A DNA stretch of 64,000 bases from Aldrovandia affinis (Eukaryota; Chordata; Actinopteri; Notacanthiformes; Halosauridae), in contig JAINUG010000228.1 of assembly GCA_029706075.1 (NCBI GenBank), positions 248,001 through 312,000 of the forward strand, given 5' to 3'. Shown here in pieces: positions 18,134 through 62,545 of the stretch; the stretch's first letter is position 1, and each line of letters opens with the position of its first letter. Position numbers and translations under genes: made by a program. The notes under the pieces are model-generated. The model saw nothing but the letters and a program-made list of their open reading frames with translations, was not told the DNA's origin and made no database searches.

Positions 18134-20395
18134 TCACCATGATTTCCAGGCTCTGTCCGCACGCAAGGCCAACCGGCCACGCAACTGATCCACATGGCGG
18201 CGATGCAATTGCCCATCTGGTGTCTGCACCTTGTACGAAACCGGCCCGGTGACACTCACAATTACGCCTGGGATCCATTTGTGACCGCCGGTATAACTTC
18301 TCATGTACACGTCATCATCCTCTTGGAAACTCCTGTTTGGCCCATGATGCCCCTCACAGCTCACCTCCTGCTTATGGTGCATGTCACTCACATAGTCCGG
18401 ATGGAGGCGATCTAGGGCAGTGGTCAGTCGTCGGTTCATGAGAAGTTCAGCAGGGCTTTTCCCGGTTGCTGAATTGGGGGTGATATGCTGCGATAGCAAA
18501 AACCTAGCCAGACGTGTTTGCCAGTCACCGACAGTAATTCGGGATAAGGCCTCTTTGGTTGTCTGGACCATGCGTTCGGCTTGGCCATTCGAACTGGGAT
18601 GGTACGGCGCTGTGGTTACATGCCTGATGCTGTTACGTCTGGCAAACTCCTGGAACTCCGCAGAGGTGAAAGAGGCACCATTATCGGAGACAATGATATC
18701 TGGCAATCCGTGAGTTGCAAAGAGGAGTCTCAATGTGCTTATGACTGCAGAGGACGACATTGAACTCACAATGGACACATCCAGCCACTTCGAGTCCACT
18801 ACTATGAGGAATGTTTTCCCTTGGAATGGCCCAGCAAAGTCTATGTGTAGACGTGACCATTTCTTGGTTGTCCACTCCCAAGGATGCAGCTGTGCTGTAG
18901 GCGGTGCGTGGCGTGACCGCTGACAGATTTCGCAAGCGTTGACTGTTTCCTCTACCTCCCTATCCATACCTGGCCACCATGCATAACTCCTTGCCAGGCC
19001 CTTCATGTGCACAATGCCAGGGTGTGCATCGTGCAGCATAGCGAGTACCTCCTTCCTCGCCAGGTTGGGAATAACCACACGGCACCCCCACAACAAACAG
19101 TTCTTATGTGCCGACAACTCATGACGGCGGGAAATGAATGGCTTAAAACTGCCGTCGGGCACGTCTGTTGGCCATCCATGCAGGACCCAGCGCAGCACAC
19201 GGGACAGGATCGGGTCCTTCAATGTAAGGGCAGCAATTCTTGTGGCATGCAACGGGGCCTCAGGTACCATTTCCAGCAAAAGCACTTCCAGTGGAGGTGG
19301 TGTCTCTGTCACTGTAGTGGGCAGTGGTAAGCGACTCAAAGCATCCGCATTCGCCAACTGTTTACCTGGCCTGTAGCTCAACTCATAATCATACGCCCCA
19401 AGGAGCACACTCCAACGCAGCATGCGTGGTGACAGGACTGCCGGCATCGGCTTAGAGTGGTGTAGTAGACCTAACAGGGGTTTGTGGTCAGTGAACACCA
19501 CAAAGTGGCGGCCAGAGATGTATTGGTGAAACTTTTTAACTGCAAAAATGACGGCTAACGCCTCCTTATCGATCTGTGCATAATTCCTTTCCATGGAAGT
19601 GAGTGTTCTGGATGCAAAACATATGGGGGCCTCCCTGCCATTTGGCTCCATATGGAAAAGCAGTGCCCCCAGGCCATACGGGGAGGCGTCACACACCAGC
19701 GCCAGGGGCTTCGTCTCATCATAGTGTGCCAGCACGTCCTCTGACTGTAACAACTGCTTTGCAGCGTCGTATGCCTTTCTGTGTGCATCATTCCACTGCC
19801 ATGGGGCCGACTGGTCAAGCAGGCGATGCAAAGGTTCCAGGACAGTAGCCTTGTTGGGCAAAAACAGCTGTAAAAATTGAAGCCCGAGAAATGATTGAAG
19901 TTCCGTTTTGTTCTTGGGGAAGGGCGCCTTCTGGATAGCTTCCACTTTTTCACGTGTAGGCCGCACACCATATTTATCCACGCAAAAACCCAAAAATACT
20001 ACCTGGTCGGCAGCAAAGATGCACTTTTCCTTTTGCAATCGCAATCCCGCTTCCGCAAAGCGTGTCAAAACGGCACACAGCCGCGAGTTGTGCTCTTCAA
20101 TGGTTTTGCCAGTGACCAGTGTGTCATCGAGATACGGCTGAACTCCCGAAATCCCAGCAAGAAGGGTATTCATGAAACGTTGAAATATAGACACCGCCGT
20201 CGACACCCCGAACTGTAAGCGGCGGGCCCGAAAAAGTCCACGATGAGTATTTATGGTAAGTAGCTCTGCAGCCTTGTCATCCAACACAAGCTGCTGATAA
20301 GCTTGTTTGAGATCAAGCTTAGTAAAAACCACTCCGCCTGCTAACTTCGAAAACAATTCTGCTACAGTAGGAATTGGGTAAATGTCAGGTTTCAC
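18134..20395 (-). CDS. Gypsy Pol: reverse transcriptase, RNase H, integrase
   Basis: The frame has 753 residues. RT blocks include FTKLDLKQAYQQL and the catalytic YLDD. RNase H follows with LVCDASPYGLGA, DKEALAVIFAV and TDHKPL. Integrase shows the zinc-binding H-H-C-C region (HPGIVHMK ... CEICQR), then HIDFAGPF, SDNGASF and a Glu in the HPSSNGQAER block, which together make the DDE triad. A C-terminal chromo-type or GPY-like region ends the frame. The N-terminal part of RT is cut off on this side by the TTAA element at 20438-21951. Confidence 0.92.
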   Translation of the reverse strand: MKPDIYPIPTVAELFSKLAGGVVFTKLDLKQAYQQLVLDDKAAELLTINTHRGLFRARRLQFGVSTAVSIFQRFMNTLLAGISGVQPYLDDTLVTGKTIEEHNSRLCAVLTRFAEAGLRLQKEKCIFAADQVVFLGFCVDKYGVRPTREKVEAIQKAPFPKNKTELQSFLGLQFLQLFLPNKATVLEPLHRLLDQSAPWQWNDAHRKAYDAAKQLLQSEDVLAHYDETKPLALVCDASPYGLGALLFHMEPNGREAPICFASRTLTSMERNYAQIDKEALAVIFAVKKFHQYISGRHFVVFTDHKPLLGLLHHSKPMPAVLSPRMLRWSVLLGAYDYELSYRPGKQLANADALSRLPLPTTVTETPPPLEVLLLEMVPEAPLHATRIAALTLKDPILSRVLRWVLHGWPTDVPDGSFKPFISRRHELSAHKNCLLWGCRVVIPNLARKEVLAMLHDAHPGIVHMKGLARSYAWWPGMDREVEETVNACEICQRSRHAPPTAQLHPWEWTTKKWSRLHIDFAGPFQGKTFLIVVDSKWLDVSIVSSMSSSAVISTLRLLFATHGLPDIIVSDNGASFTSAEFQEFARRNSIRHVTTAPYHPSSNGQAERMVQTTKEALSRITVGDWQTRLARFLLSQHITPNSATGKSPAELLMNRRLTTALDRLHPDYVSDMHHKQEVSCEGHHGPNRSFQEDDDVYMRSYTGGHKWIPGVIVSVTGPVSYKVQTPDGQLHRRHVDQLRGRLALRADRAWKSW

Positions 20396-20437
20396 AACTG
20401 TATTGACTGTGCAGCGATAATCGCCACATATCCTTAA

Positions 20438-21951
20438 CCCTCTGAGGTCCGTGCTAAGCTTTTAGATGTTTTTTGATTTTGGCATGGTCTGATATTTATC
20501 TCAATTTCATCAATTTAACACACACTTACTCCAACGTGTTTGATATTTTTATTTGAAGGACAATCACAGCTACATTTGTATGCTATCAATAGTTTGGTCA
20601 GTATCATATGCAGCTTGTAAATAGATCTACAAACACACAAGTTAAAAATAGTAAATTTTTCTGCTGTCACAAAAGTTGTGAAAGCACACACTAAACTATA
20701 GTGACGAATTGTTTTGCCAATGTGCGTTTGTTCATCAAGGTCTTGGTTATGTAAGGGGTGTGAAAACAGTTTAGCACATCTGAGATCTAAATAGCTAAAA
20801 ACCTGTTTTTATCAGAACTGGTCACATTTATTTCAGGCTGTGGAGGGCTAAATGCTAAATACCTGAATATTCATTATTCATTGTCCACACCTCTAAGATC
20901 TGTCAGATGGGCCATCTCACTGGGCCATCAGTGTTATATTCTGAGTTCCTGTTCTGTTGTTTTTTGGCCTTTGTTTATTTTTCATTCAGTCCTTATTCAT
21001 TATTCTTTATCCAGTATTGCATTTTCCCTGTTCTGTCACGTTCTGCTCCTGTCTGTCCTTGTTCGTTTATTTCGAGATCCACACCTTGTCTTGTCATGCA
21101 CTTCGGGAGTTTATACTTTTCGGGGTTTTTCCGCCTTCGCTTATTATCTCGTTTTCTTCCTTCTTACTTTCTAGATTGCACTTTGTATATATTAGGTAGA
21201 TGTGTATAGTACTAACCAACTAATCTACTAACGTTAGGGATTTAGATTAAGTTACTAACACGCGGAATATGTTTGGCGTCACAAGACGCTGAATTCATAT
21301 ATTTTCACGAGTATTTGAAAACAAGCGAAATAAATAACATTTTAGGCTGTTTGAAAAGTATTCTTCCATAGATCTTGTGTGCATATTGCAATTTGTTACG
21401 TTGCAACACGCGGAATATGTAGTCACAAGACGCGGAATTCATATATTGAATATATATACGAGTATTTGATAACATGGCAAATCAAATATAGTTACTTACT
21501 CTTCGTCAGTTATTATCTTCGTCGCTTTTCATCAATACTCTCAAACACTGCAGCGCAGAAAATCTTTCCATCTTGAATAAAATTGTATGTCTGTATAAAA
21601 TCTTGCTTCAAATTGTCGGGACAGTTTATGTGTTTACGCCGGCGTTTTCACACATGGCCCGACGCCCTCCCACACACCTCGCCTAAACTCGCCCCTAGTT
21701 ACCATGTCAATAGAAGGGGGACGTTACTACCAGGTAAAAAAGAGAGTAAAAGGCAAGGTTTACTTTTGGTCTAATTAACCTAATTTAAAAAATCCCATTT
21801 GATTTGCCAGTGCTCAAATCGGAAAGTCGCGATTCTAAGGTTTCTGTCAATGTTTTTGTCGCGTGTGTATGATAAAATATCGCGAAGTTAGAAATAGTAA
21901 TATACTTTTATTGCTGCTGGGAGCGGCGCCGCTCCCGTCGACCTCAGGGGG
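20438..21951. mobile_element. piggyBac-like TTAA element, copy 1, inside the Gypsy pol
   Basis: TTAA flanks the element at 20434-20437 and 21952-21955. The ends CCCTCTGAGGTC and GACCTCAGGGGG form the inverted repeat. The length is 1514 bp. No transposase frame is recognisable, so this is a non-autonomous member. The inner sequence next to the left end (GTCCGTGCTAAGC...) matches the reverse complement of the right end of 36601-37962, so the two copies are of one family in opposite orientation. Because it sits within a Gypsy whose LTRs look identical, it moved recently. Confidence 0.88.
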
Positions 21952-21955
21952 TTAA

Positions 21956-22093
21956 GCTACCATCCTTCTTCGCTACTGGCACAATGGGTGTGGCCCACCT
22001 TCAATGTCGCACTGGCTCAAAAATACCCTGAGCTACCAGTTTATCAAGTTCCTCATCTAGTTTTGGTCGGAGGGCGAATGGCACTGGCCGCGC
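21956..22093 (-). other. Gypsy pol, segment between the TTAA element and the Gag-PR frame
   Basis: This short stretch continues Gypsy sequence on the far side of the inserted TTAA element. It holds the start of the RT region, with the Gag-PR frame stopping at about 22094. Confidence 0.7.
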
Positions 22094-23413
22094 TTAAAAA
22101 AATCTTGGTGAGGCTGTAGGATCAATATCAATGGATACTGGGGGAGTGCGTGCAGCCCCAAACTCCTGGAAAACTTCTGCATATTTGTTCACGATGGCAT
22201 CTACGGATTGCCAGTTCACCTGATGCACCCCCACTAATGAGATGCCTAGGGCATTAAACCAGTCTCGTCCCAGGAGGCTCGTCCCCTGACCCTGTACAAC
22301 AAACAAGGGCAATGTATCCCGTCTGCCTTGATACTGCACCTCCACAAAAATTCTCCCTTTAATCCGGAGCTCCGCTTGTGACCACTGCCGCAACACGCTA
22401 CTGACTTTATGTATTACAGGAGGCAGGACAGGCCACAGTGTGTGATAGGTGCTCTCACCTATTAAAGAGCATGCAGCCCCAGAGTCCACTTCCATTACAT
22501 GTGTTTTGTTATTCAGGATCACAGTGGCTTGATATGGCCGTTTTCCTTCAGCGTCCGACTGCTGACCTGTGTGGTAGATGCCATATTCCTCCTGTTCCGT
22601 CCGTGTAACCGTGTGCGCTTGCTGTGCTGAATGGGGGGCTGTCGCAGGAGATTCGGTAGTGGCACCATCCCTGGTCTTCTTTAAACAAACACGAGCTATG
22701 TGGCCCCCCTTTTTGCAATAATGGCATATGGCCATGGTAAATTTGCAATTGTGTGGGTTGTGTGTGCCACCACATCGGAAACATGGCCTCTGATCAATTT
22801 GAGCCTTTGCTTGCTTTTCTTCCATAGTGGGCTGACTGTGTGCAGTTTGATGTACTTCCGTCATTTGCGGTGGACCAGCTCGCTCTGGATGGAGCACGCG
22901 AGCATTTAACATCGCAGTTTCTGCAGCTAGTGCCCTCTCCTCAGCGTCTTTAAATGTCAATCTGTGTTCCGCCAGCAGGCGGCGCTGGAGCGCTTCATCA
23001 AGAACCCCACAGACAATACGATCACGCAGCATAGCCTCCAGTTGGTCGCCAAAAGCACAGTGAACCGACAGTTTACGTAGTTCCGCAATGTAACTTGAAA
23101 TGTTTTGGTTTGCTTTCTGTTTGCAATTATGAAACTGAAAACGCTGAACGATTTCTGAAGGGGTTGGGTTATAATGACGCTTCAAAGCTGTTACAATGTC
23201 CGCAAAATCCACTGTAGTGGGCAACCGTGGTGCGAGCACAGAACGCAATGTGGAATATGTTGCCGGCCCACACACACTGAGTAACACCGCGCGCTTTTTT
23301 CCATCTTCCCCTATTTCGTTAGCCTCGAAAAAACATTCCAATCGTTCAATGTATTCTTCAATTGAATTGTCAGAGCCTTCATCAAACTCCTCTATCCTCC
23401 CCAGCGTGGCCAT
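22094..23413 (-). CDS. Gypsy Gag-protease polyprotein
   Basis: The frame encodes 439 residues. Residues 1-180 form an alpha-helical Gag/capsid-like region (EEYIERLECFFEANEI near the start). Two CCHC zinc knuckles follow: CFRCGGTHNPHNC and CHYCKKGGHIARVC, around residues 210-245, which bind RNA during packaging. An aspartic protease follows with the catalytic DSGA and a LLGRDW block near residue 385. The fused Gag-PR layout is common in Gypsy elements. It is encoded by the element, not the host. Confidence 0.9.
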   Translation of the reverse strand: MATLGRIEEFDEGSDNSIEEYIERLECFFEANEIGEDGKKRAVLLSVCGPATYSTLRSVLAPRLPTTVDFADIVTALKRHYNPTPSEIVQRFQFHNCKQKANQNISSYIAELRKLSVHCAFGDQLEAMLRDRIVCGVLDEALQRRLLAEHRLTFKDAEERALAAETAMLNARVLHPERAGPPQMTEVHQTAHSQPTMEEKQAKAQIDQRPCFRCGGTHNPHNCKFTMAICHYCKKGGHIARVCLKKTRDGATTESPATAPHSAQQAHTVTRTEQEEYGIYHTGQQSDAEGKRPYQATVILNNKTHVMEVDSGAACSLIGESTYHTLWPVLPPVIHKVSSVLRQWSQAELRIKGRIFVEVQYQGRRDTLPLFVVQGQGTSLLGRDWFNALGISLVGVHQVNWQSVDAIVNKYAEVFQEFGAARTPPVSIDIDPTASPRFF

Positions 23414-23574
23414 CGTGCTACTTTATGTACAGTGCACAAGCGACGTAGGAGCTTTGTTAGCTAACTAGCTTGGTAGCCGTAAAGTTCTAGCCGTCTCAAG
23501 TCCAAACAGACACAAGAAACACCACAGTTCTCGTAAAAACCTGCTCTTTGGGTTCGGATCCGCTTCGTCGCCAG

Positions 23575-25189: not shown

Positions 25190-26947
25190 CCTTCACAGCC
25201 GTGGGGGCGTCAGCAGCACCTGGTATGGTCCCCACCACCGGGTGGATGCCAATGTCCTTCTGAGGTCCTTCACCACCACCCAATCTCCTGGCCTTCCTTC
25301 GTCTCAGGAAGTGCTGCTTTCACCTTTAAAAATAGATCTCAGAACATTGTTTAACGCGACGCAGTATCTTACCATCATCTGTTCCTTGCAGAGTCAGCCG
25401 ATTCTGTGGAAAGTGTTTGATTAGCTCTTTCAACTGCACCACCACTGGCTGGGTGATAAGCACAGTGTGTTCTCAGATCCATCTGGTCGTGGATGGCATT
25501 GTTATGCCCTTCCCTACATTGTTAGTCAAACAAATAACAAATTTCAGCATATACATGAAAGCATGATGTATACCAACATTTATTTACAAGTTCTGTCATC
25601 CCCCCCTTTGATACATGGTCACTATCATGTATCAATTTGGCAAGGAAAGGAAAAGTAGAACGTGGAAGTGCAGGCAGGCCAGTCGGGCCTACCCACACAT
25701 TGTTGCGAGGGGTACACTGACGTTTCCAAACCTGTAATTCTCGTGCATCAGATCCTGTTCGTGACATCATTATTGAGAGAGAATGGGTTAAAAATGGCAC
25801 CTGCGCAGCCATCTGCACAATGGGGAAGAAAAGAGAGGAAGCAGCCAGCTTAGCTGCTGCATCCGCTGCTGCATTTCCCTGTGATACTGGATCATTCGCA
25901 TTCGTGTGGGCCTGACATTTACAAATCGCAATAGAAGAAGGCAACAATATGGCATTTAAAAGATTCTGTCCTAATACATACTGCATAATTGGTTTTCCTG
26001 TAGAGGTGAGAAATCCTCTCTGTGCCCATAAGGCCCCAAAATCCTGACACACCCCGTAAGCGTCAGTATAGATTGTAACTGATTTGCCCTCTGCCAATCT
26101 ACAGGCACGAGTTAGAGCAAACAGCTCTGCCGCTTGTGCAGAGAGATGTGAAGGCAGCCTCCCACTTTCTACTGTCCCGTATGTTGAACAAACAAAGGCC
26201 ACGTAGGCCACCAGGGGCTCGCCTGTGGCCCTGTCCCTCTGTGCAGAGCCATCCACAAAATATATCAGATCAGAATTTGGAAGGGGTATGTCTGTTAGTC
26301 AGGCCGGGGCTCAGAGAAAATCTCCACCAGCTGCTCACAGGAATGTGGCTCCATCATCTTCTGTGGGGAGCAAAGTAGCAGGGTTAAGTACAATACAAAG
26401 TTTCAGGTTGACATGCGACATAGTTAGTAGCACATTTTGCCAATGTAGAATCACTTGGTGTTACATGACATGCAGGTTTTATTTGTGCAGTCCGTGCCTG
26501 CGAGACTATCGCATATAGGCCTACTGCGTGTGGGACGTGTATCGTCACTTTGACATAAATCTTTTTATTTTCTCTGATACAAATAAATTGAAGGGACTTT
26601 GATGATTCGGTAAACCTAAACAGGGAGAAGAAGTCAATGCCTGTTTCAGGTGAGTCAAAGCTGTCAAAGATTCACTATTCCAGTCAATGTATTCTGTCAT
26701 GGCCATTTTGTGACCATGTATTAATTCCGAAAGTGGTTGAACTATTTCAGCATAGTCCATGTAGTAGCCACTCTGCAGTAGCCAGCCATTCCCAAAAGGG
26801 TCATCATGTGTTCTTTGTCGTCGGTTGAGGCAAGGCCAGAATCGCCTCGATTCTGTCCGAACTCAACCGACGTCCAGCAGGTGTGATGTCATGACCTAAA
26901 TATATCACATTTTGAGTAACAATTTGTAATTCAAACCAATTTTTAAA

Positions 26948-29678: not shown

Positions 29679-32600
29679 CTCCTCCCTTTTGTTACTAATG
29701 TAACAACTTAAGGAAAAATTTCATCAGGCAACTGGAATGGGTAGCTACCTTTAAAAATTATTACGCGAGAGTGTTACCTTATTGTTCCCATTCTCTCTCT
29801 CCTGCCTATTTACTTCAGAAACGCCAATCACCAAAATTAAAAGGAATAGGAACCATCATAGGGGAATGGGTGCCGTGTGGCATGTGTTGACAAATCCAAC
29901 AATTACTGTAGTTCATTTCTGCGGCAATCATCTCTACAGCCTGATTCTCAGGGGGAACCGGCGGCTGTTGTAAAGCCTCACTAGCTTGTAAAGTCACACG
30001 CATAGACATGGCCAACATTTAAACAGTCGAACCCACTTAAAAGACACATATTCCAACAGAAAACATCGGAAACATACAGGCATTGACTTCCGCCTAACAC
30101 TCCTGATTGTAGACATTTGTCCAGTCTATTGCAAAGTTATTGAATATACTACAACATGTCTTGTGAGGTGTAGGGCCATTATTCAAGTCCCTCAGTTGGT
30201 CTGAGATGACGTCATTCAAGCTGTTATGTCCAGTCTGCTGTAGAATCGTCTCCTCCCCTGGCCCTGCTTTCGGGTCCCCGAAAGCAAGCATAAGGCTACA
30301 CACCACAATGGTCAATGTTAGTGCGATAATAGTCATTATTATGCATGGAAACCAGGGGTTGTCCTGTGGCTTAAGCAGATGCGGGTACCGCCTCCTCAGG
30401 AACTCGTCTCTAGTGGGAAGCGTGTATCCAGGTATCTCTGTCCGCAACCTTCACAGCCGTGGGGGTCGTCAGCAGCACCTGGTATGGTCCCCACCACCGG
30501 GGTGGATGCCAATGCTTTCGTCTGAGGTCCTTCACCACCACCCAATCTCCTGGCCTTCCTTCGTCTCAGGAAGTGCTGCTTTCACCTTTAAAAATAGATC
30601 TCAGAACATTGTTTAACGCGACGCAGTATCTTACCATCTCGTCATCTGTTCCTTGCAGAGTCAGCCGATTCTGTGGAAAGTGTTTGATTAGCTCTTTCAA
30701 CTGCACCACCACTGGCTGGGTGATAAGCACAGTGTGTTCTCAGATCCATCTGGTCGTGGATGGCATTGTTATGCCCTTCCCTACATTGTTAGTCAAACAA
30801 ATAACAAATTTCAGCATATACATGAAAGCATGATGTATACCAACATTTATTTACAAGTTCTGTCATCCCCCCCTTTGATACATGGTCACTATCATGTATC
30901 AATTTGGCAAGGAAAGGAAAAGTAGAACGTGGAAGTGCAGGCAGGCCAGTCGGGCCTACCCACACATTGTTGCGAGGGGTACACTGACGTTTCCAAACCT
31001 GTAATTCTCGTGCATCAGATCCTGTTCGTGACATCATTATTGAGAGAGAATGGGTTAAAAAATGGCACCTGCGCAGCCATCTGCACAATGGGGAAGAAAA
31101 GAGAGGAAGCAGCCAGCTTAGCTGCCGCATCCGCTGCTGCATTTCCCTGTGATACTGGATCATTCGCATTCGTGTGGGCCTGACATTTACAAATCGTAAT
31201 AGAAGAAGGCAACAATATGGCATTTAAAAGATTCTGTCCTAATACATACTGCATAATTGGTTTTCCTGTAGAGGTGAGAAATCCTCTCTGTGCCCATAAG
31301 GCCCCAAAATCCTGACACACCCCGTAAGCGTCAGTATAGATTGTAACTGATTTGCCCTCTGCCAATCTACAGGCACGAGTTAGAGCAAACAGCTCTGCCG
31401 CTTGTGCAGAGAGATGTGAAGGCAGCCTCCCACTTTCTACTGTCCCGTATGTTGAACAAACAAAAGGCCACGTAGGCCACCAGGGGGCTCGCCTGTGGCC
31501 CTGTCCTCTGTGCAGAGCCATCCACAAAATATATCAGATCAGAATTTGGAAGGGGTATGTCTGTTAGTCAGGCCGGGGCTCAGAGAAAATCTCCACCAGC
31601 TGCTCACAGGAATGTGGCTCCATCATCTTCTGTGGGGAGCAAAGTAGCAGGGTTAAGTACAATACAAAGTTTCAGGTTGACATGCGACATAGTTAGTAGC
31701 ACATTTTGCCAATGTAGAATCACTTGGTGTTACATGACATGCAGGTTTTATTTGTGCAGTCCGTGCCTGCGAGACTATCGCATATAGGCCTACTGCGTGT
31801 GGGACGTGTATCGTCACTTTGACATAAATCTTTTTATTTTCTCTGATACAAATAAATTGAAGGGACTTTGATGATTCGGTAAACCTAAACAGGGAGAAGA
31901 AGTCAATGCCTGTTTCAGGTGAGTCAAAGCTGTCAAAGATTCACTATTCCAGTCAATGTATTCTGTCATGGCCATTTTGTGACCATGTATTAATTCCGAA
32001 AGTGGTTGAACTATTTCAGCATAGTCCATGTAGTAGCCACTCTGCAGTAGCCAGCCATTCCCAAAAGGGTCATCATGTGTTCTTTGTCGTCGGTTGAGGC
32101 AAGGCCAGAATCGCCTCGATTCTGTCCGAACTCAACCGACGTCCAGCAGGTGTGATGTCATGACCTAAATATATCACATTTTGAGTAACAATTTGTAATT
32201 CAAACCAATTTTTAAACACAGAATTTCTCTATCAATCGCTCCTTTTTATGATTTTATCCCATATAGTCATAAAATACTTTCACATTTAGAACAACATTGT
32301 AATTTTGCTTTTGATACTTTAAGGCCATTTTCCGCTAAAAATAGAAGCACTGCTCTTGTATCTGTTTCACAGGCCTTTTTGGAAAAGGAACACAAAAGTA
32401 AATCCTCTACATATTGAATTAATGTACTCCCTCGGGCGGCACGAACTGCTCTAAATTTGCTGCTAATTCAGCAGAGAAAATCGCTGGCAATTCGACATAT
32501 CCTTGCGGAAGGACAGTCCAAGTCCATCGTTTACCTTTGAATTTAAATGCAAACCAAATCTGGAAGTACCGCAATACAAAAAAATAAAATAAAATGCATT

Positions 32601-41135: not shown

Positions 41136-41324
41136 TGAAAACAATGTATATTCTGTAAATAGCTATTATTATTATCTTCATAAATCCTCATTTACTGGGG
41201 CTTACAGCTGAATAGTAACTAATCCATACACAAATGAACATTGCACACCCATTTAATTCCAAATGAGCCTCATCAGTCCTTCATACAACCTCTATTATTA
41301 GAAAAAAGAAAGAAGAGAGTATTT

Positions 41325-41605
41325 TATACCTGCAGATTTGATGGATGGTGACCTTTGACCTGTATCCCCCTTTGACATCTCATTTCTACCTTGTTCTTTG
41401 ATTTCTACCTTTCCGTTCATTATAGTGGTTAGTTTAATAGAACGAAAAACATGCAAAGCCCTGATGATGTTTGTAATTGATCTGCAAAGCACTGGGGAAG
41501 GTTTTTTTAAATTAATGTTCTCTCACATAACATAGTTCAAACCACAGTGCAACATTCAGAGTTAATAAATAAGCCGGTTTCTGAGCCTATATTTAAGAGG
41601 AAATA
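41325..41605 (+). repeat. Polinton left terminal inverted repeat
   Basis: The repeat contains GGTGACCTTTGACCTGTATC and later AACGAAAAACATGCAAAGCC and AAGCACTGGGGAAGG, each matching the reverse complement of the right repeat. It is shorter than the right repeat because about 150 bp present there are lacking here. Confidence 0.75.
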
Positions 41606-41699
41606 GCCTAACTTTAGTTTCCTCTGGAATTGTCTTAACTAGAGTACTTAATGATCTATGTATGAATGCTCACTCCAGAAAATGATCTGTTCTTGTACT

Positions 41700-41830
41700 C
41701 TTCACCGTGGTCTTTGACACTATTGACCATGAAATCCTACTAAATAAACCACAAGACTGGGTTGGTATAACAAGAACTGCCTTAAGCTGGTTTAGAACCT
41801 ATTTCACCAAACATATCTCCGAAGAGGAAT
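41700..41830 (+). mobile_element. L2-type LINE scrap (RT fragment)
   Basis: A short plus-strand stretch reads VFDTIDHEILLN and then WFRTYF, the first catalytic region of L2-clade reverse transcriptase. It is a few dozen codons long, lies inside the Polinton and has no tail of its own. Confidence 0.6.
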
Positions 41831-41916
41831 GAGACAAATGTTTTGGCCTTTTGGTCCAAGAAAAATCCCCTGCCAAAGCCAGAGGCATGGGAAACTTATT
41901 ACAACATGCCTGATGA

Positions 41917-42620
41917 GTGAGAAAATACATTTTGGCTGAGGAGCTGAGTGCGCTCCTGTTCGAAATCCTTGTCAAACCCAGACATATAAACCACAAACCG
42001 GCCCCTGGGGTAAACGTTGCATTCCTAGAAGTGCATATGGATAATGTGAGACAGGTTTCTGGTGTAAACTGGAAAGAAATGTTGTCAGACACTATAGAAT
42101 GTACATCACCATTACATGTCTATTTACATGACCTTTTTACAATACTATTTAAAAATCAATAGGGTTGGAAGATTGCTCACATTTTGTCTGTAGTTCCATG
42201 TGTAACTGATGTCTGTATAATTAAATTGCATAGAAATGAAAATGTAAATGCTGATAAGGTTCCATGTTTGATAGCAACTCTTCTTGACAAAAATGTTCAA
42301 GCCTGTGTGGATTTTATAAAGTTCCTTGATGTAAAGTAACAGGGGCACTTTTTATATGAAAATGAAAATGAATGTTTTTAAAAACATTCAGACTGTCATT
42401 ATTCTTTCGACGTCTACATGTGGGGGGTCCTCTAACAATGTCAGAACGGTTGATGAAATCCGCGTATTACACACCAGCAAAACTGGCTCATATGGGGGAA
42501 AAGAAAACTTTCAAAGGAGCCTGAAGGAAGCAATTGGTGCAAGGTTAAATTATTCTCTTGAAGCTACAACAAGATGGGCTGTGCTTTTCCACAATCGAAT
42601 TGTGTAGTTATGAACAGAAT
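41917..42620 (+). other. Unassigned open fragments in the Polinton
   Basis: Plus-strand frames at 41917-42162 and 42356-42607 show no motif I can name. Their place between the left end and the integrase remnant suggests Polinton-coded sequence, but I cannot assign them. Confidence 0.35.
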
Positions 42621-43079
42621 TCCCAATGCAAGTATACACTTCAAATTTCTATTTTAAAAGCTTTTTGAAAAAGTAAGGCAGAAAAAAGCCCAATCCCCGA
42701 AGTCTACGTCAACCGTGTCGGAAAAGCACGAGTCGGATCAACATGTCATAGAGAGAACGGAAGAGGGGATTATGGCGTTACACTGTACTGAAATGCATTG
42801 AGCATATAGCAACTACAATATTCTACACTCTTAGAAATAACTTTATTAATCAACATGACAAACCATCTGCTATGTATTCTATCACACGTGAGGCGTCGGA
42901 AAAAATGTTTGATAGCGAGAGCAGACACAGTCCGCAGTCCTCCCCTCGTCCTGATGTTTTTATCGACGAGAGTGGCAATGCCCAAATGGAGATCGCAACA
43001 GTGATCCAACCATTTAGGTTTGAGCCTGAAGTGCGGGCATGTTTTTAAACTTAAAATATGCATATGTGTTTTCAGATAA

Positions 43080-43388
43080 ATATGATCACAAACTTACTAT
43101 GATATAGTTAGGGGGTATTTGAGAGACATGTGTCATCACTTTTGCAAGGTAAATTCGCTGGTGCCTACACTTTAAGGTTGGTGATACAGTCCGAGTGTCC
43201 CGAGTGAAAGGGCCTTTCGTGAAAGGTTGTGAACAAAATTTTACAGATGAGTATTTCACAGTTGTAGAATATATCCCCAGGGTCTCACCTGTGCACATAC
43301 TACAAGACTACAATGATAAAAAGATTGAGGGGACATTTTACGAGAAAGAACTGAAAAAGATGTTTGTGGGCAAAGACAAAGCTTTTAA
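43080..43388 (+). pseudogene. Polinton integrase remnant, C-terminal region
   Basis: The plus-strand frame reads VSRVKGPFVKGCEQNFTDE, then FTVVEYIPR and EGTFYEKELKKMF. This is the region after the catalytic core in Polinton integrases, which resembles the GPY/F-type C-terminal segment of retroviral and Gypsy integrases. The catalytic core upstream is not recognisable. The frame runs into the inserted TTAA element at 43389, and the chromodomain lies beyond it. Confidence 0.7.
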
Positions 43389-43433
43389 CCCTTTGATACA
43401 TAAGCCCTCCACACCCCCTCTAATGCATAACAT

Positions 43434-43449
43434 GGGTCAACAATGACCC
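43434..43449. repeat. GGGTCA palindrome, copy 1 (IR4)
   Basis: GGGTCA-ACAA-TGACCC is a 6-bp inverted repeat with a 4-base spacer. Two more copies with spacer TTTT lie at 44982-44997 and 45171-45186. The arms match the nuclear-receptor half-site RGGTCA, but an inverted spacing of four is not the standard estrogen-receptor spacing of three. It may serve transposase binding instead. Confidence 0.6.
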
Positions 43450-43585
43450 GTCATCAATAAAGACATACTATAATAATAATTTAATAATAATTTTGTTAAA
43501 ATAATGATTTTAGCAGTGATTTGGTCTACACAAGTATCCATTGATATTTGAAATATGTTTTTTTTTTTACTTTTCAGCACATATA

Positions 43586-44826
43586 CACCCATGGCCAAAA
43601 GTTTTGAGAATGACACAAATATTAATTTTCACAAAGTCTGCTGCCTCAGTTTTTATGATAGCAATTTGCATATACTCCAGAATGTTATTAAGAGTGATCA
43701 GATGAATTGCAATTAATTGCAAAGTCCCTCTTTGCCATGAAAATGAACTTAATCCCCAAAAAAACATTTACACTGCATTTCAGCCCTGCCACAAAAGGAA
43801 TAGCTGACATCATGTCAGTGATTCTCTCGTTAACACAGGTGAGAGTGTTGATGAGGACAAGGCTGGAGATCACTCTGTCATGCTGATTGAGTTAGAATAA
43901 CAGACTGGAAGCTTTAAAAGGAGGGTGGTGCTTGAAATCATTGTTCTTCCTCTGTTAACCATGGTTACCTGCAAGGAAACACGTGCAGTCATCATTGCTT
44001 TGCACCAAAAGGGCTTCACAGGCAAGGATATTGCTGCTAGTAAGATTGCACCTAAATCAACCATTTATCGGATCATCAAGAACTTCAAGGAGAAAGGTTC
44101 AATTGTTGTGAAGAAGGCTTCAGGGTGCCCAAGAAAGTCCAGCAAGCGCCAGGACCGTCTCCTAAAGTTGATTCAGCTGCGGGATCGGGGCACCACCAGT
44201 GCAGAGCTTGCTCAGGAATGGCAGCAGGCAGGTGTGGGTGCATCTGCACGCACAGTGAGGCGAAGACTTTTGGAGGATGGCCTGGTGTCAAGAAGGGCAG
44301 CAAAGAAGCCACTTCTCTCCAGGAAAAACATCAGGGACAGACTGATATTCTGCAAAAGGTACAGGGATTGGACTGCTGAGGACTGGGGTAAAGTCATTTC
44401 CTCTGATGAATCCCCTTTCCGATTATTTGGGGCATCCGGAAAAAAAGCTTGTCCGGAGAAGAAAAGGTGAGCGCTACCATCAGTCCTGTGTCATGCCAAC
44501 AGTAAAGCATCTTGAGACCATTCATGTGTGGGGTTGCTTCTCAGCCAAGGGAGTGGGCTCACTCACAATTTTGCCTAAGAACACAGCCATGAATAAAGAA
44601 TGGTACTGCATGAGGTCTTGAAAAAGAAGGGTCAACACTGCAAATATTGACTCTTTGCATAAACTTAATGTAATTGTCAATAAAAGCCTTTGACACTTGT
44701 GAAATGCTTGTAATTATACTTCAGTATACCATAGTAACATCTGACAAAAAGATCTAAAAACACTGAAGCAGCAAACTTTGTGAAAACCAATACTTGTGTC
44801 ATTCTCAAAACTTTTGGCCACGGCTG
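43586..44826 (+). mobile_element. Tc1/mariner element, internally deleted, nested in the TTAA element
   Basis: The ends CACCCATGGCCAAAAG and CTTTTGGCCACGGCTG are inverted repeats, flanked by the TA target duplication (43584-43585 and 44827-44828). Inverted repeat similarity continues for about 70 bp. The length of 1241 bp is about 350-400 bp below a full fish Tc1. It lies wholly inside the TTAA element, so it is the youngest layer of this nest. Confidence 0.92.
43961..44650 (+). pseudogene. Tc1 transposase, broken
   Basis: The frame from ATG at 43961 has the paired-type DNA-binding region (GKDIAASKIAPKSTIYRII), then GCPRKSSKRQDR, a second helix-turn-helix (TVRRRLLEDGLVSRRAAKKP) and the first catalytic Asp in VISSDESPF. 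A length change in the A-run at 44440-44446 shifts the frame, and the next part (KKLVRRRKGERY to MNKEWY) continues in the other frame. An internal deletion near 44607-44612 then removes the second Asp and the Glu of the catalytic triad. The last residues (KKKGQHCKY) follow to a stop at 44648-44650. It cannot make active transposase. Confidence 0.9.
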
Positions 44827-44874
44827 TACACATCTGATAACTGTCACATAACATAACAAAGATCAAAAGGTTCC

Positions 44875-45190
44875 TTATCAAAAACAAGTTACCTGGATTG
44901 CTGAGTGATAAAATACATTTATTCCAAAGATATAGCAAATAAACACTCAAGTGTGCATAAACGTACATAGGAAATGAATGCGGGTCATTTTTGACCCATG
45001 CTATGCATTAGAGGGGTAGTAATACAAAAACCATTTTTATTCAAAAAGTAAGAAAGGAAATATCAAAATAAAGATTTGTGATTATCAAAAACAAGTTAAT
45101 TGAGGAATACCTGGATTGCTGAATGATGAAATTCATTTTTTGTAAAGATATAGAAAATAAACTCTCCACCGGGTCATTTTTGACCCGGGT
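44875..45190. repeat. Tandem duplication, about 207-bp period, in the TTAA element
   Basis: TTATCAAAAACAAGTT begins at 44875 and again at 45082, followed in both cases by ACCTGGATTGCTGA-type sequence (a small insertion in the second) and by a GGGTCATTTTTGACCC palindrome. The end of the element was therefore duplicated. Confidence 0.75.
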
Positions 45191-45207
45191 TATGTATCAA
45201 AGGGTTA

Positions 45208-45338
45208 AAGTGGAAAAGATTTTGGCTGAAAAGAAGCAAAACAGAAAAAAAAAATGTTTAGTGAAATGGGTGGGCTGGACAGAGAAATGTAATACATGGA
45301 TACCTAGTGATCAAATTGTTAATATCCAAGCATTATAA
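45208..45338 (+). pseudogene. Polinton integrase chromodomain remnant
   Basis: The plus-strand stretch reads VEKILAEKKQNRKKK, then VKWVGWTEKCNTWIPSDQIV. The VKW-GW and NTWIP words are the chromodomain signature. Polinton integrases end in this module, which is thought to guide integration to chromatin. It starts directly beyond the TTAA element. Confidence 0.75.
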
Positions 45339-45355
45339 AACCCCCCACCTGCAAT

Positions 45356-45655
45356 GTGTACAAGCTCATAATATATATCCATGACGGTATGGACGGGGAT
45401 GGTTTTTATATCACGCTCCCAAGTAATACATCATTGGATATATATCCTGATAACAAAATTGGTAGTTACAGGACAAGGTTTGCCAAGCCTATTGATTTGA
45501 GGGGTGAATGGGAAGCTGCTCTTGCAGAGATACAATACCCTCATACCTGGGACTCGTTAACCATTATTATTTTGGACCCCTCCCAGTTCTTGATAATGGC
45601 CCATGGTAAGCTGGCGCGATTGCTAGGGTTGCCTTCAGGGGAATACTTTCCCACT
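45356..45655 (+). pseudogene. Polinton structural-protein remnant, N-terminal part
   Basis: The frame reads GDGFYITLPSNTSLDIYPDN, then SYRTRFAKPIDLRGEWEAA and LAEIQYPHTWD. The word order LPSN-S, YPDN, GEWE, IQYPH is that of a conserved protein in vertebrate Polintons I associate with the virion-protein cluster, but I cannot name the protein with certainty. It is interrupted by the L2 LINE that begins at about 45660. Confidence 0.65.
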
Positions 45656-46066
45656 GTTCTGTTATTTCTGCTCACGGTTTTTCCTATCACTGTAATGCCG
45701 ATGACACTCAACTCTTTCTCTCCTTCTCTCCATCTGAGACCCAGGTTCTGGGACGGATCTCTGCATGTCTGGCCGACATCTCTGCATGGATGTACAACCA
45801 CCACCTGAAGGTGACCTGGGGAAGACAGAGCTGCTCTTCCTCCCAGCGAAGGGCTCCGTGTTGATTGATGCTTCAATCACCATGGAAGGCTCCGTAGTGT
45901 CTCCGTCCCAGTCTGTCAGGAGTCTTGGAGTGACCCTGGACAACCAGCTGTGCTTCTCGGGCCACATTGCAGCGATCACTTGGACCTGCCAATTCTCCCT
46001 CCACAACATCCGGAGGATCCGACCGTTCATCACCCAAGAGGCCACACAACTCCTGGTCCAGACCCC

Positions 46067-46560
46067 AGACCCCATACGCCATGTGACAATCCCTGGATGG
46101 AATAGAGCAGTCTGGAAACAGGGTTGGAGTTTTCGGTCTACGGACCGGATTCTTTATTATTTATTTCAAAATGTTCTCTGATCCCGACACGGGCAGAGAA
46201 CTAGATCGGGAGTTCTTTTCAACAAATAAACCAAATTAAATCTGTCCGTCGCCCTCACGGATTCGGGACACAAAACCCATAAACTTTAAACACAACAAAA
46301 CTATCAAACAATAACTGGGAACTTTCCAGTTCCCGTTTTCCTTTTACTTCGCTTTTTCTTTCTTTCTTTCTTTTCTTCTCCTTGGTCTCCCACACCTTTT
46401 CTTTCTTGTTCCAGCCACCTACTGAAGAGAGCAGAGCAGTTTTCAAGCACACCGATGTGATTAGCAACACCAGACCAGTGCGTGCGTTGGCTGCTCTGCC
46501 AGTAGGCGTGGCCGCTAATCGCCCTGATCCGCTGCTGAGACCAACGCCTTCCACACACTG
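46067..46560. other. About 500-bp unassigned insert in the L2 LINE
   Basis: Between EATQLLVQT-type RT sequence and the C-terminal region there are about 500 bp with no L2 similarity. The insert contains CTTTTTCTTTCTTTC-type runs near 46350. I could not assign its family or confirm target duplications; a solo LTR or small transposon are options. Confidence 0.4.
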
Positions 46561-46879
46561 GTGCTTGCTTTTCAAGCAGCTAGAGGTACTGCTCCCCCAT
46601 ACCTCAAGTCACTCATCATTCCCTACACCCCAACCAGACCCCTCCGCTCCACCTCCTCTGGCAAACTGACTGTCCCATCCCTCCGGGCGCCTAGCAGCCG
46701 CTCCTCGTGATCTCGTCTCTTCTCTGTCCTGACACCTCGGTGGTGGAACTGCGGAATCACTTGCGATCTTCCGCACGAGACTCAAAACCCACCTTTTCAG
46801 ACTCCACTATCACTGAATTCTGTACATCTAGCTAATTGTCATCACCACTGCCTACTTGCGCAACACTATGTATCCCTGC

Positions 46880-46935
46880 TTAAAAATAAAAAATAAAAAT
46901 AAAATAAAATAAAAAATAAAAATAATAATAACTAC
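46880..46935. repeat. A-rich simple repeat (AAAAT)n
   Basis: A run of AAAAT and AAT words lies within the L2 3'UTR region, in a non-coding stretch. Confidence 0.8.
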
Positions 46936-47115
46936 TAACCTTTTCCATCCAAGTGTTACAGGTATGGTATGCAGCTGCCTGCAATGATGTCTATCGCTGT
47001 ATTACTGCACTGATCTCTTGCGCGAACTATCATTGTTACTACCATGTATTTATGCACATCTTGTAAGTCGCTCTGGATAAGAGTGTCTGCTAAATGCTTA
47101 AAATGTAAATGTAAA

Positions 47116-47245
47116 TGTATGAGCAGAACGTCTTCCCGCATCCTGCAGATATTCACACAGGGTTCTACATGCAGTACGTATATAGAAACTTTATAGACTA
47201 CCAAAGAGTAGGAAATAGCTTTGTGCCTTTTTTGAGATTAATCTT
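47116..47245 (+). pseudogene. Polinton structural-protein remnant, second part
   Basis: Just after the LINE tail a plus-strand frame reads VFPHPADIHTGFYMQYVYRN and then VGNSFVPFLR. Similar words (ADI-GGFYTLYVY, VG...PLLR) occur in vertebrate Polinton proteins. With 45356-45655 on the other side, this places the LINE within the Polinton gene cluster. Confidence 0.6.
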
Positions 47246-47329
47246 ATAAAAGTTTCCCATTCATAAAAGACACTTTTTAAATAATTTTTTAAAGAATCAA
47301 TGCTTTGAATTCACTTGAGGACATAAGAG

Positions 47330-47775
47330 ATATTTCCTCTTAACTATAGGGTCAGAAACCAGCTTATTTATTAACTTGAGTACGGCACTGTAGTTTGAAC
47401 TATGTTACGTGAGAGAACATTAATTACAAAAACCCTTCCCCAGTGCTTTGCTGATCAATTACAAAAACATAATCAGGGCTTTGCATGTTTTTCGTTCTAT
47501 TAAATTAACCGCGCAATAAAACCCCCAATTTCCTCCAGAACAGAATACGTGCTTTGGGGCTTTTCCAAACCCAAACCCATTCCTGATAAATACCTATTTC
47601 TATATTCATTGGATGCTGTGATAGCCGATTCATTAAGTTTAACAGGACAGCATGGAACCATTATATCTGCATTAATAACTAATGGAAAGGTAGAGATCAA
47701 AGAACATCAAAGGGAAAGGTAGAGATTAGATGTCATAGGGGGATACAGGTCAAAGGTCACCATTCATAAAATTTG
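47330..47775 (-). repeat. Polinton right terminal inverted repeat
   Basis: Read on the minus strand it repeats the left end. An additional stretch at about 47510-47660 has no counterpart in the left repeat; it could be a later insertion here or a deletion there. Confidence 0.75.
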
Positions 47776-48690
47776 TAGGTAGCTGCCGAGATGGAAAAAA
47801 ATTGGTCAGGAGCACAAAGACTCCTGTGTTTGTTATCCAGAACAACACAAGGTAGCCAGCCAAGTCCTGTTAAGAGCGATCGAGTGGGACATTTTAGATG
47901 GGAAAACATGGGACTGACTATCAAGGGCCTCTCTGTGCCTGGGGGGCTCAAAACATCATTAGCAATGCAAGCTGTCTGTCTGTGTGGAAGCTCAGCTGAC
48001 CTGTTCCCCTGAGGTCCATAGCAACTGCCTCTTGTTAGAACCTAGCAGACTAACGAAGAGCCTAGGTGACCACACCCATCAAGGCAGACACAGGGTGCTT
48101 ATGTAATCAGACAAGTCGTTCTTCAGAAAGTCTTTCATTCACAGCTTGGGGTGTCTAACGTCCCACCGGACCTCAGTCCCGACTTACAGTAGTGTCCATT
48201 ATCAGGGGACGGAGGCTGCAAACTGAGTTTTTTTTTGTTGGAAGGTCCTTGGCTTGACTGGTGTAGGAGGAGATTGGAGGGGGGATGCGGAGCAACACCC
48301 CCCCATCTAGGGGCAGAGTGATTCATAACAGAAGTACTGTTTTCAAGCACTGGTTTCCCATCCTCACCATCTCATTTTACAGATTACATTACGTTTTGGA
48401 TTCACATAGGGTTACAATGCTCTCCTGAATCCCTCTGTGATCAAAGCCCAAATAGTGGGGGGACTCTGTTAATTAAGAGAAAATTGCTTTTGTATGTGAA
48501 AAAAATGCTTTTGTCTCCCAAAGGAGACCATCCACAGAGATAAATAGCTGCATTACTGACCCTCACGTTCCCTCAACAGAACTGGGATTTAAAAACTGAT
48601 ACAGAGGCCCCATTTCATTGCAAGCATTGTAAGCATTGTGTTTCAGTGAACAAAAGGGATCAGGACAAGAAGGATCTGGATATGGCAGAA
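47776..48690. other. Unique-looking DNA
   Basis: No domain, RNA or repeat is recognised between the Polinton and the minisatellite. Confidence 0.4.
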
Positions 48691-61715: not shown

Positions 61716-61899
61716 AGGCCTATACATGCTCACGCAACTGCAATGTGACTGCGACGCGACATCCTCTGCAAAACGTCGCAGAGGATGTCACGTACCTAGC
61801 ACAAAAATCAAACTTGCAACATGTCGCGTAGACATTGCACAGCATTGATTGGTTGATTGCTGTCATGGTCATAGTTCATCGAGCTAGTACATCATTTTT

Positions 61900-61960
61900 T
61901 TACATTTTACATTTTAAGCATTTAGCAGATGCTTTTATCCAGAGCGACATCCAGATTAGG
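61900..61960 (-). repeat. L2-type tail hairpin (minus strand), fragment 1
   Basis: On the minus strand the words read ATGTCGCTCTGGATAAAAGC and GTCTGCTAAATG-like sequence, the L2/SINE 3' tail. It is a short fragment, probably of a SINE or LINE end. Confidence 0.75.
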
Positions 61961-62389
61961 GGAGAAAGATAAAAGTAGCGATTTTTTAAATTCTGTGAAA
62001 AGACAGAAAAAGACCGTTCTTAATTTCCCTTAATACATGAACATTATTAGAGTCGTGCTGGTTCCTTTGTTCCACGTGAATTTACTCTATTATTTTAATG
62101 CTATAAAGGTGAGTTGCTCGCACACAAGCTGCTTTAATGACAGGCGTCCTTTTTTTTTTCAAAGGTTTTAAAGTCTATTGTACTGACAGTACATTAAACT
62201 CGGAGATTCTGCAAACAACAAAGGATCGACTGTGGTCTTCACGTCATTCTAAATGATATATTTAAGGTTGCAAATATCCAGATGTTTTGTGTTGTGCTTT
62301 AAATTACATATAAATGTAACATGTAAACTACAACACCTTAATGCGCAGAATATTCAACTAACAAAACAAAGAAAGAGCAGGGCGCATAT

Positions 62390-62545
62390 CCATTTTTTTA
62401 AGCATATGGCAGATGCTCTTATCCAGAGTGATTTACTAGATGTGCATTAATACATGGTAAGAACAATCATAGTTAGCACAAGAGATCAGTGAAGTAATAC
62501 AGCGATAGACATCATTGTTGGCAGCTGCATACCATACCTGTATAT
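62390..62545 (-). repeat. L2 3'UTR and tail (minus strand), fragment 2
   Basis: The reverse complement matches 46955-47110 over about 150 bp, including CAGGTATGGTATGCAGCTGC and CTCTGGATAAGAG. It is therefore the 3'UTR and tail of the L2 family seen at 45660-47115. Confidence 0.85.

Follow-up and report, generated by a model that had tools for sequence, protein, structure and literature searches.

Vertebrate Polinton/Maverick elements are described as having an (AG)3 or (AGT)2 terminal motif, inverted repeats with a reported range of 46-1447 bp and an integrase gene followed by a structural gene (PMC8097293), and the account of adintoviruses gives a chromodomain as a feature of their integrase (PMC11071296). 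In salmon, copies of the piggyBac-like elements pTSsa1/2 are described as nested in other transposons, nested in each other or adjacent (PMC2198921), and CAG is given as the footprint of Sleeping Beauty, a Tc1-type element (PMC8151067). The relative timing of mobile elements is widely read from nests, with interruptions among transposons used in mammals (PMC2517846). Here we consider a nest in a 64,000-nt stretch of the genome of the fish Aldrovandia affinis (contig JAINUG010000228.1, positions 248,001 to 312,000; the whole stretch is termed the window), where a fossil best read as a Polinton/Maverick holds, among other insertions, a non-autonomous piggyBac-like TTAA element that itself holds a Tc1-like element. 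A first-pass annotation, made from the window alone, had ordered the layers by their nesting, with the Polinton first, an L2 long interspersed nuclear element (LINE) and the TTAA element next and the Tc1 last. Searches of the 1.22-Gb genome that holds the window instead point to the Tc1-bearing TTAA element as a single mobile composite that arrived at the locus in one event.

The TTAA element has perfect 15-bp inverted ends of the CCY type (CCCTTTGATACATAA) inside its TTAA duplication, and its coordinates are exactly those of the first-pass annotation. Inside a span of 3 kb, the combination of TTAA with a 15-bp inverted pair is found at a single place in the window and in none of 100 order-1 Markov windows. 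The element measures 573 bp without the Tc1, and the composite 1.8 kb. The Tc1 had been described as complete-ended with a TA duplication; its ends and coordinates likewise proved exact, but its interior is incomplete. It is a 1241-bp form lacking 328 internal bases that the full-length relative L037, with an open frame of 358 aa, has at the break, and the deletion leaves little of the second half of the transposase catalytic domain. Two relatives of the surrounding fossil lack the composite and read CTTTTAAAATGG (L009) and GCTTTTATAGTGG (L025) where the window has GCTTTTAA//TTAAAGTGG, L009 differing at this TTAA site by a stretch of several bases as well. We also observed that the TTAA element is asymmetric, its right end having two diverged copies (82-86%) of its own end region (44890-45018 and 45108-45207) and its left end a single one.

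The evidence for joint movement comes from copies elsewhere in the genome. When the Tc1 (43586-44826) was used as query, the best 40 of 550 candidates were scored; these comprised the window, 29 other copies of the 1241-bp form (some trimmed), eight copies with a full interior, in which the alignment breaks at query 1021/1022, and two that are otherwise arranged (C2276 and C1800). Both flanks were read for all 29 deleted copies and for one full-length copy. In 28 of the 29 deleted copies the Tc1 adjoins sequence from the arms of this TTAA element; under a strict test, the complete left arm is present in 25/29 and both ends of the element are reached in 20/29. TTAA stands on both sides in 18 of these 20, the others showing TTAA/TAAA (C657) and TTAT/TTAA (C280). 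The outer flanks, of tens of bases each, are mutually unlike except in C460 and C1589, small contigs with common flanks and internal gaps in the arms that represent one locus, leaving 19 distinct sites. The full-length Tc1 copies whose flanks were read (L037 and C2211; 2/8) both lie outside the TTAA element. Because the same 328-bp-deleted Tc1 occupies the same internal TA of the same TTAA element elsewhere, the Tc1 was already inside the element before its arrival in the Polinton. A keyword-level search, weak as evidence, found no published account of a piggyBac-like element spreading with a Tc1 inside.

A second series, drawn with the right arm as query, bears on what has become of the passenger. 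The best 40 of 237 candidates (96-100% identity) were scored and the junction was read in all 40. A Tc1 is present at this junction in 37: the window, 14 of the copies already examined, C2276, 20 further loci and C1113:1264663-1264923 (L113), a composite whose Tc1 deletion is larger than the common 328 bp. We note the Tc1 of C1113 as ongoing erosion of the passenger. The three Tc1-free loci read GCACATA-TA-CAG-TA-CACATCTG in C2322 and C2160 and GCACATA-TA-TG-TA-CACATCTG in C1989, where CTAG stands in place of the left outer TTAA. Since all three bear Tc1-type footprints and are not virgin sites, these junctions indicate that the inner Tc1 has excised from within the composite.

The outermost layer is marked by inverted repeats which had been noticed from the window alone and which are real (41327-41605 against 47331-47781). 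They align in two pairs. The inner pair (41427-41605 with 47331-47510) is 90% identical over 181 columns (E 4e-64), the outer pair (41327-41423 with 47675-47781) 80% identical over 107 columns (E 2e-23); a stretch of about 164 bp in the right repeat (47511-47674) has no match in the left. Direct reading of the letters places (AG)3 at 41314-41319, the left terminus, whereas the final bases at the right terminus lack (CT)3. Only A-rich 6-mers offer themselves as the 6-bp target duplication, GAAAGA and GAAAAA agreeing at 5/6 if the element starts at (AG)3. The repeats belong to a dispersed family with 38 matches in the genome, two of which are the window's own copies. One relative, L012, also has the (AG)3 terminus. 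Same-family repeats lie 13.6 kb apart at C113:8693267 and 8706923, where they enclose the relative L009, and, inverted to each other with a spacing of about 3.3 kb, at C347:2163001 and 2166311.

L009 is colinear with the fossil in the window, matching 43171-43379, 45205-45566, 45564-45652 and 47120-47238 in the same order, and shows on the opposite side a weak remnant of DNA polymerase B (PolB; PF03175, E 7e-5). Its chromodomain scores 20.5 bits, under the cut-off of 25.1 that the chromodomain of the window passes. The piece at 43171-43388 is assigned to the end of the integrase because it precedes the chromodomain, and the minor capsid protein label for 45353-45653 is based on the gene order described in PMC8097293. 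No Pfam match was obtained for the integrase core (rve) in the window pieces searched, for the integrase-end piece at E 1, for PolB among 10 window pieces or for the structural piece after the integrase, which also gave no useful PDB match, in either the window or L009. Viral-contig scans confirmed no relative of the Polinton proteins outside this genome, and the protein database held none of the integrase piece; the PolB-side piece had a single unnamed, distant match there (E 3e-10, 34% of the query covered). The PDB gave no useful match to the Polinton pieces, and PHROGs no help (best E 0.0046, to a family of unknown function). Certain letters of L009 are MCP- and protease-like by resemblance only; Pfam gave no match for them. 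Thus, of the Polinton profiles by which the first-pass annotation proposed to judge its identification, the chromodomain matched (PF00385), and the integrase core and structural piece did not. Nevertheless, the (AG)3 left end, the gene order of PMC8097293, the chromodomain and the 13.6-kb same-repeat relative with PolB and chromodomain remnants together bear out the Polinton/Maverick fossil as the best reading of the outer element, of whose own sequence about 3 kb remains at the locus. The same-family Polinton fossil L025 (C2022:4147000-4155500) has a different Tc1-like transposase inside (930-1400), and its neighbouring stretch L036 has retrotransposon-like gag-pol frames. Equal spacing between 41971 and 43319 in L025 was rejected as proof of colinearity, as a Tc1 occupies that stretch there.

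Two further insertions in the fossil had been proposed from the window, an L2 LINE in the structural-gene region and a LINE scrap near 41700, and both are upheld. The 3' stem-loop RF00436 lies at 47051-47103, scoring 56.9 bits where the gathering threshold is 55. Comparison with relatives places the end of the L2 at 47119 and its 5' truncation, evident against L020 and L027, near 45654-45656. L009 runs continuously across this point (2518/2521) and so provides an empty site for the L2. With the empty TTAA sites of L009 and L025, this agrees with the earlier proposal that both the L2 and the TTAA element entered the Polinton later. The L2 itself contains an insert that is likely a long terminal repeat (LTR), to judge by its similarity over the first ~100 bp (87%) to L032:7562-7653 and, by eye, at the 3' end; L032:7554-8401 is an 848-bp unit running from TG to CA between copies of GTTAG, and is probably a solo LTR related to the insert. 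No target duplication is visible around the insert in the window. The LINE scrap is reverse-transcriptase-like and also matches the L2 copies L019, L020 and L027 (tblastn E 5.6e-5 to 1.1e-5). Further UnaL2-type 3' ends lie in the window at 2032-2085, by RF00436, and at 61899-61948 and 62385-62542, by similarity to the tail of the nest's L2.

With regard to timing, arms of the composite from the window and 19 other copies were aligned over 573 columns. Their mean pairwise difference is 2.0%, and the window differs from the others by 2.7% (1.9-3.5), with eight private substitutions. The pattern is nearly star-like, since only 9/573 columns have a shared minority base. By comparison, K is 0.090 for the inner and 0.124 for the outer pair of Polinton repeats, the Polinton pieces differ from their paralogs by 0.095-0.183 and the L2 lies at 0.103-0.137 from its closest relatives (0.22 from L022). 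By divergence, the composite is the youngest arrival; the L2 and the Polinton are inseparable, and their order comes from nesting alone. The divergence of the L2 was rejected as a separate age for this overlap with the Polinton repeats, as was that of the Tc1 inverted repeats, whose 84-90% arm identity recurs among the scored copies. With more than four insertions and overlapping Polinton-repeat and L2 divergences, the nest gives a coarse order only. The four-step clock for four families that the first-pass annotation had offered does not survive the additional LTR-like insert, the arrival of the composite as one and the overlapping divergences.

The nesting itself suggests that the TTAA element reached the Polinton without a Tc1 and that the Tc1 followed it there, and Tc1-free TTAA elements do exist (3/40). 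We nevertheless consider this order very improbable, given that the same deleted Tc1 lies at the same internal TA of the same element elsewhere, against arm sequence in 28/29 copies, and that the three Tc1-free elements are all footprinted and so formerly held a Tc1. The order advanced in the first-pass annotation thus stands refuted, short of repeated insertion of the identical deleted Tc1 at one base; of the empty sites sought to check it, Polintons without the TTAA element were found (L009 and L025), and TTAA elements without the Tc1 were found solely in footprinted form. That the composites are segmental duplications or assembly copies and not products of transposition would suit C460 and C1589, with their common flanks at one locus, but differing flanks beyond the element in the other 18 of the 20 both-end copies and the TTAA on both sides in 18/20 leave this explanation scarcely any credibility.

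The outer element poses a comparable choice between erosion in place and insertion in an already internally deleted form, as a non-autonomous Polinton derivative. The latter is lent substance by the same-family repeats spaced about 3.3 kb apart at C347; we hold it unlikely yet worth serious consideration, because the LINE, L2 and composite insertions, like the divergence between the repeats (K 0.090 and 0.124), speak for long decay in place. If the repeats came from an unrelated transposon with a captured Polinton fragment, this could account for the missing integrase core and the unclear 6-bp duplication in the window. However, the same repeats flank the 13.6-kb relative with its PolB, integrase-end and chromodomain remnants, and the (AG)3 terminus, which L012 shares, is that of vertebrate Mavericks (PMC8097293), making such a capture improbable.

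We thus hold with high confidence that the locus is an eroded Polinton that took up the LINE scrap, the LTR-hit L2 and, last, a composite with a passenger Tc1 that has sometimes been excised. On the shared composite, its differing outer flanks, the TTAA duplications, the footprints and the empty sites, all observed, the following course may be built, its enzymes and copying route being our proposal. A Polinton/Maverick would have inserted long ago and then lost most of its interior, gathering the LINE scrap and the L2, the latter hit in turn by the LTR-like sequence. At another site, an internally deleted Tc1 would have entered the 573-bp piggyBac-like element; with the outer ends kept, a piggyBac-type transposase acting in trans could have carried the entire 1.8-kb unit to new TTAA sites, one landing falling in the integrase remnant of the Polinton. 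The Tc1 would thereby have multiplied as a passenger, and, independently, Tc1 transposase (compare the 358-aa frame of L037) may at times have cut the deleted copy out, leaving CAG-type footprints.

Several points weigh against parts of this account. The source of the trans-acting piggyBac-type transposase is presumed. The never-occupied form of the TTAA element (GCACATA-TA-CACATCTG) is absent from all fetched sequences, and the entry of the Tc1 is accordingly not documented. A single excision, spread by subsequent moves, may underlie both CAG footprints. The deleted Tc1 of C1827 lies outside the TTAA element, and may be a re-insertion or a pre-composite copy. The proportions given apply to the copies that scored best (40 of 550 for the Tc1 and 40 of 237 for the right arm). 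As for the Polinton, its right end and 6-bp duplication are unclear, and the PolB of the relative scores 22.3 bits, below the Pfam cut-off of 25.8. More tentatively, and at somewhat less than even chances in our estimate, two engines may act on the nest, a piggyBac-like vehicle that spreads a dead Tc1 and a Tc1 transposase that keeps excising it and seeds free copies such as C1827. If so, each copy would record the last engine to act on it, through TTAA duplications outside and CAG-type footprints inside.

Features of the nest, in positions of the window.
Feature	Coordinates	Strand	Basis and remarks
Left terminal inverted repeat, Polinton fossil	41314..41627	+	(AG)3; lacks ~164 bp of right repeat; reaches 41627 against L009
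LINE reverse-transcriptase scrap, both ends lost	~41620..41812	+	tblastn E 8e-15 to LINE in L014
Polinton-derived stretch	41815..42460	+	77.6% identity to L016, there ~1.4 kb inside Polinton repeat
Putative integrase C-terminal end, Polinton	43171..43388	+	Matches L009:1669-1854; position before chromodomain; left of TTAA insertion
TTAA target duplication, left copy	43385..43388		Direct sequence; empty sites L009, L025
Composite: non-autonomous piggyBac-like TTAA element with Tc1	43389..45204	+	Recurs as unit elsewhere in genome
TA duplication of Tc1	43584..43585 (left); 44827-44828 (right)		Direct sequence
Tc1-like element, 328-bp internal deletion	43586..44826	+	PF01498 helix-turn-helix, E 5e-19
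TTAA target duplication, right copy	45205..45208		Direct sequence
Integrase chromodomain, Polinton	45207..45338	+	PF00385, E 2.8e-8, 34 bits against cut-off 25.1
Putative minor capsid protein N-terminal piece, gene after integrase	45353..45653	+	Matches L009:2079-2518; left of L2 insertion
5'-truncated L2 (UnaL2-type) LINE	45654..47119	+	RF00436; relatives L019, L020, L027; empty site L009:2518/2521
LTR-like insert in L2, 490 bp	46066..46555		Replaces 188-189 bp of L2 present in L020 and L027
Continuation of L2-interrupted gene	47120..47238	+	86.6% to L009:2521-2632
Right terminal inverted repeat, Polinton fossil	47331..47793	-	Repeat alignment; end without (CT)3

Elsewhere in the window, gag- and pol-like frames of 442 and 775 aa at 18134-23422 (minus strand) resemble by eye a Gypsy-like retrotransposon. 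Near-identical frames at 25522-26298 and 31015-31533 (both minus strand), 5 kb apart and RNase H-like by eye, are perhaps a duplicated retroviral pol piece.

More generally, the inner layer of this nest is older than the middle layer's arrival at the locus. The rule by which the inner element is the younger fails here, and any chronology based on nesting must first ask whether two layers were moving together. The genome offers a natural series in which composites with the Tc1 or with a footprint stand beside a single free deleted Tc1 and full-length Tc1s, so that one can count how often each of two unrelated transposases acted on the same unit.

Among known systems, UnaL2/L2 LINEs share with the insert in the fossil the RF00436 3' element and 5' truncation, with no notable difference. 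Teratorn of medaka is reportedly a piggyBac-like transposon fused with a herpesvirus; there too a piggyBac-like vehicle has another mobile genome aboard, although the cargo in the window is a dead 1.2-kb Tc1 and the vehicle gives no sign of function. The outer fossil is like the vertebrate Polintons/Mavericks in a repeat length within the reported range, in (AG)3 at its left end, in an integrase remnant followed by a putative structural gene, in the weak PolB remnant of its relative and in its decay, most known copies being described as degraded (PMC8097293); it differs in keeping about 3 kb, with no integrase core found and no clear 6-bp duplication. The TTAA duplication and CCY-type ends are those described for the non-autonomous piggyBac-like pTSsa1/2 of salmon (PMC2198921), whereas the element studied here has no transposase of its own and holds a Tc1 as fixed passenger in most scored copies. 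The passenger agrees with Sleeping-Beauty-type Tc1-like elements, as described in PMC8151067, in its TA target, helix-turn-helix transposase remnant and CAG-type footprints; unlike them, it has a 328-bp deletion and has moved mainly within another transposon. The locus clearly illustrates nested co-amplification, in a variant of a familiar type, and does not provide a four-step clock.

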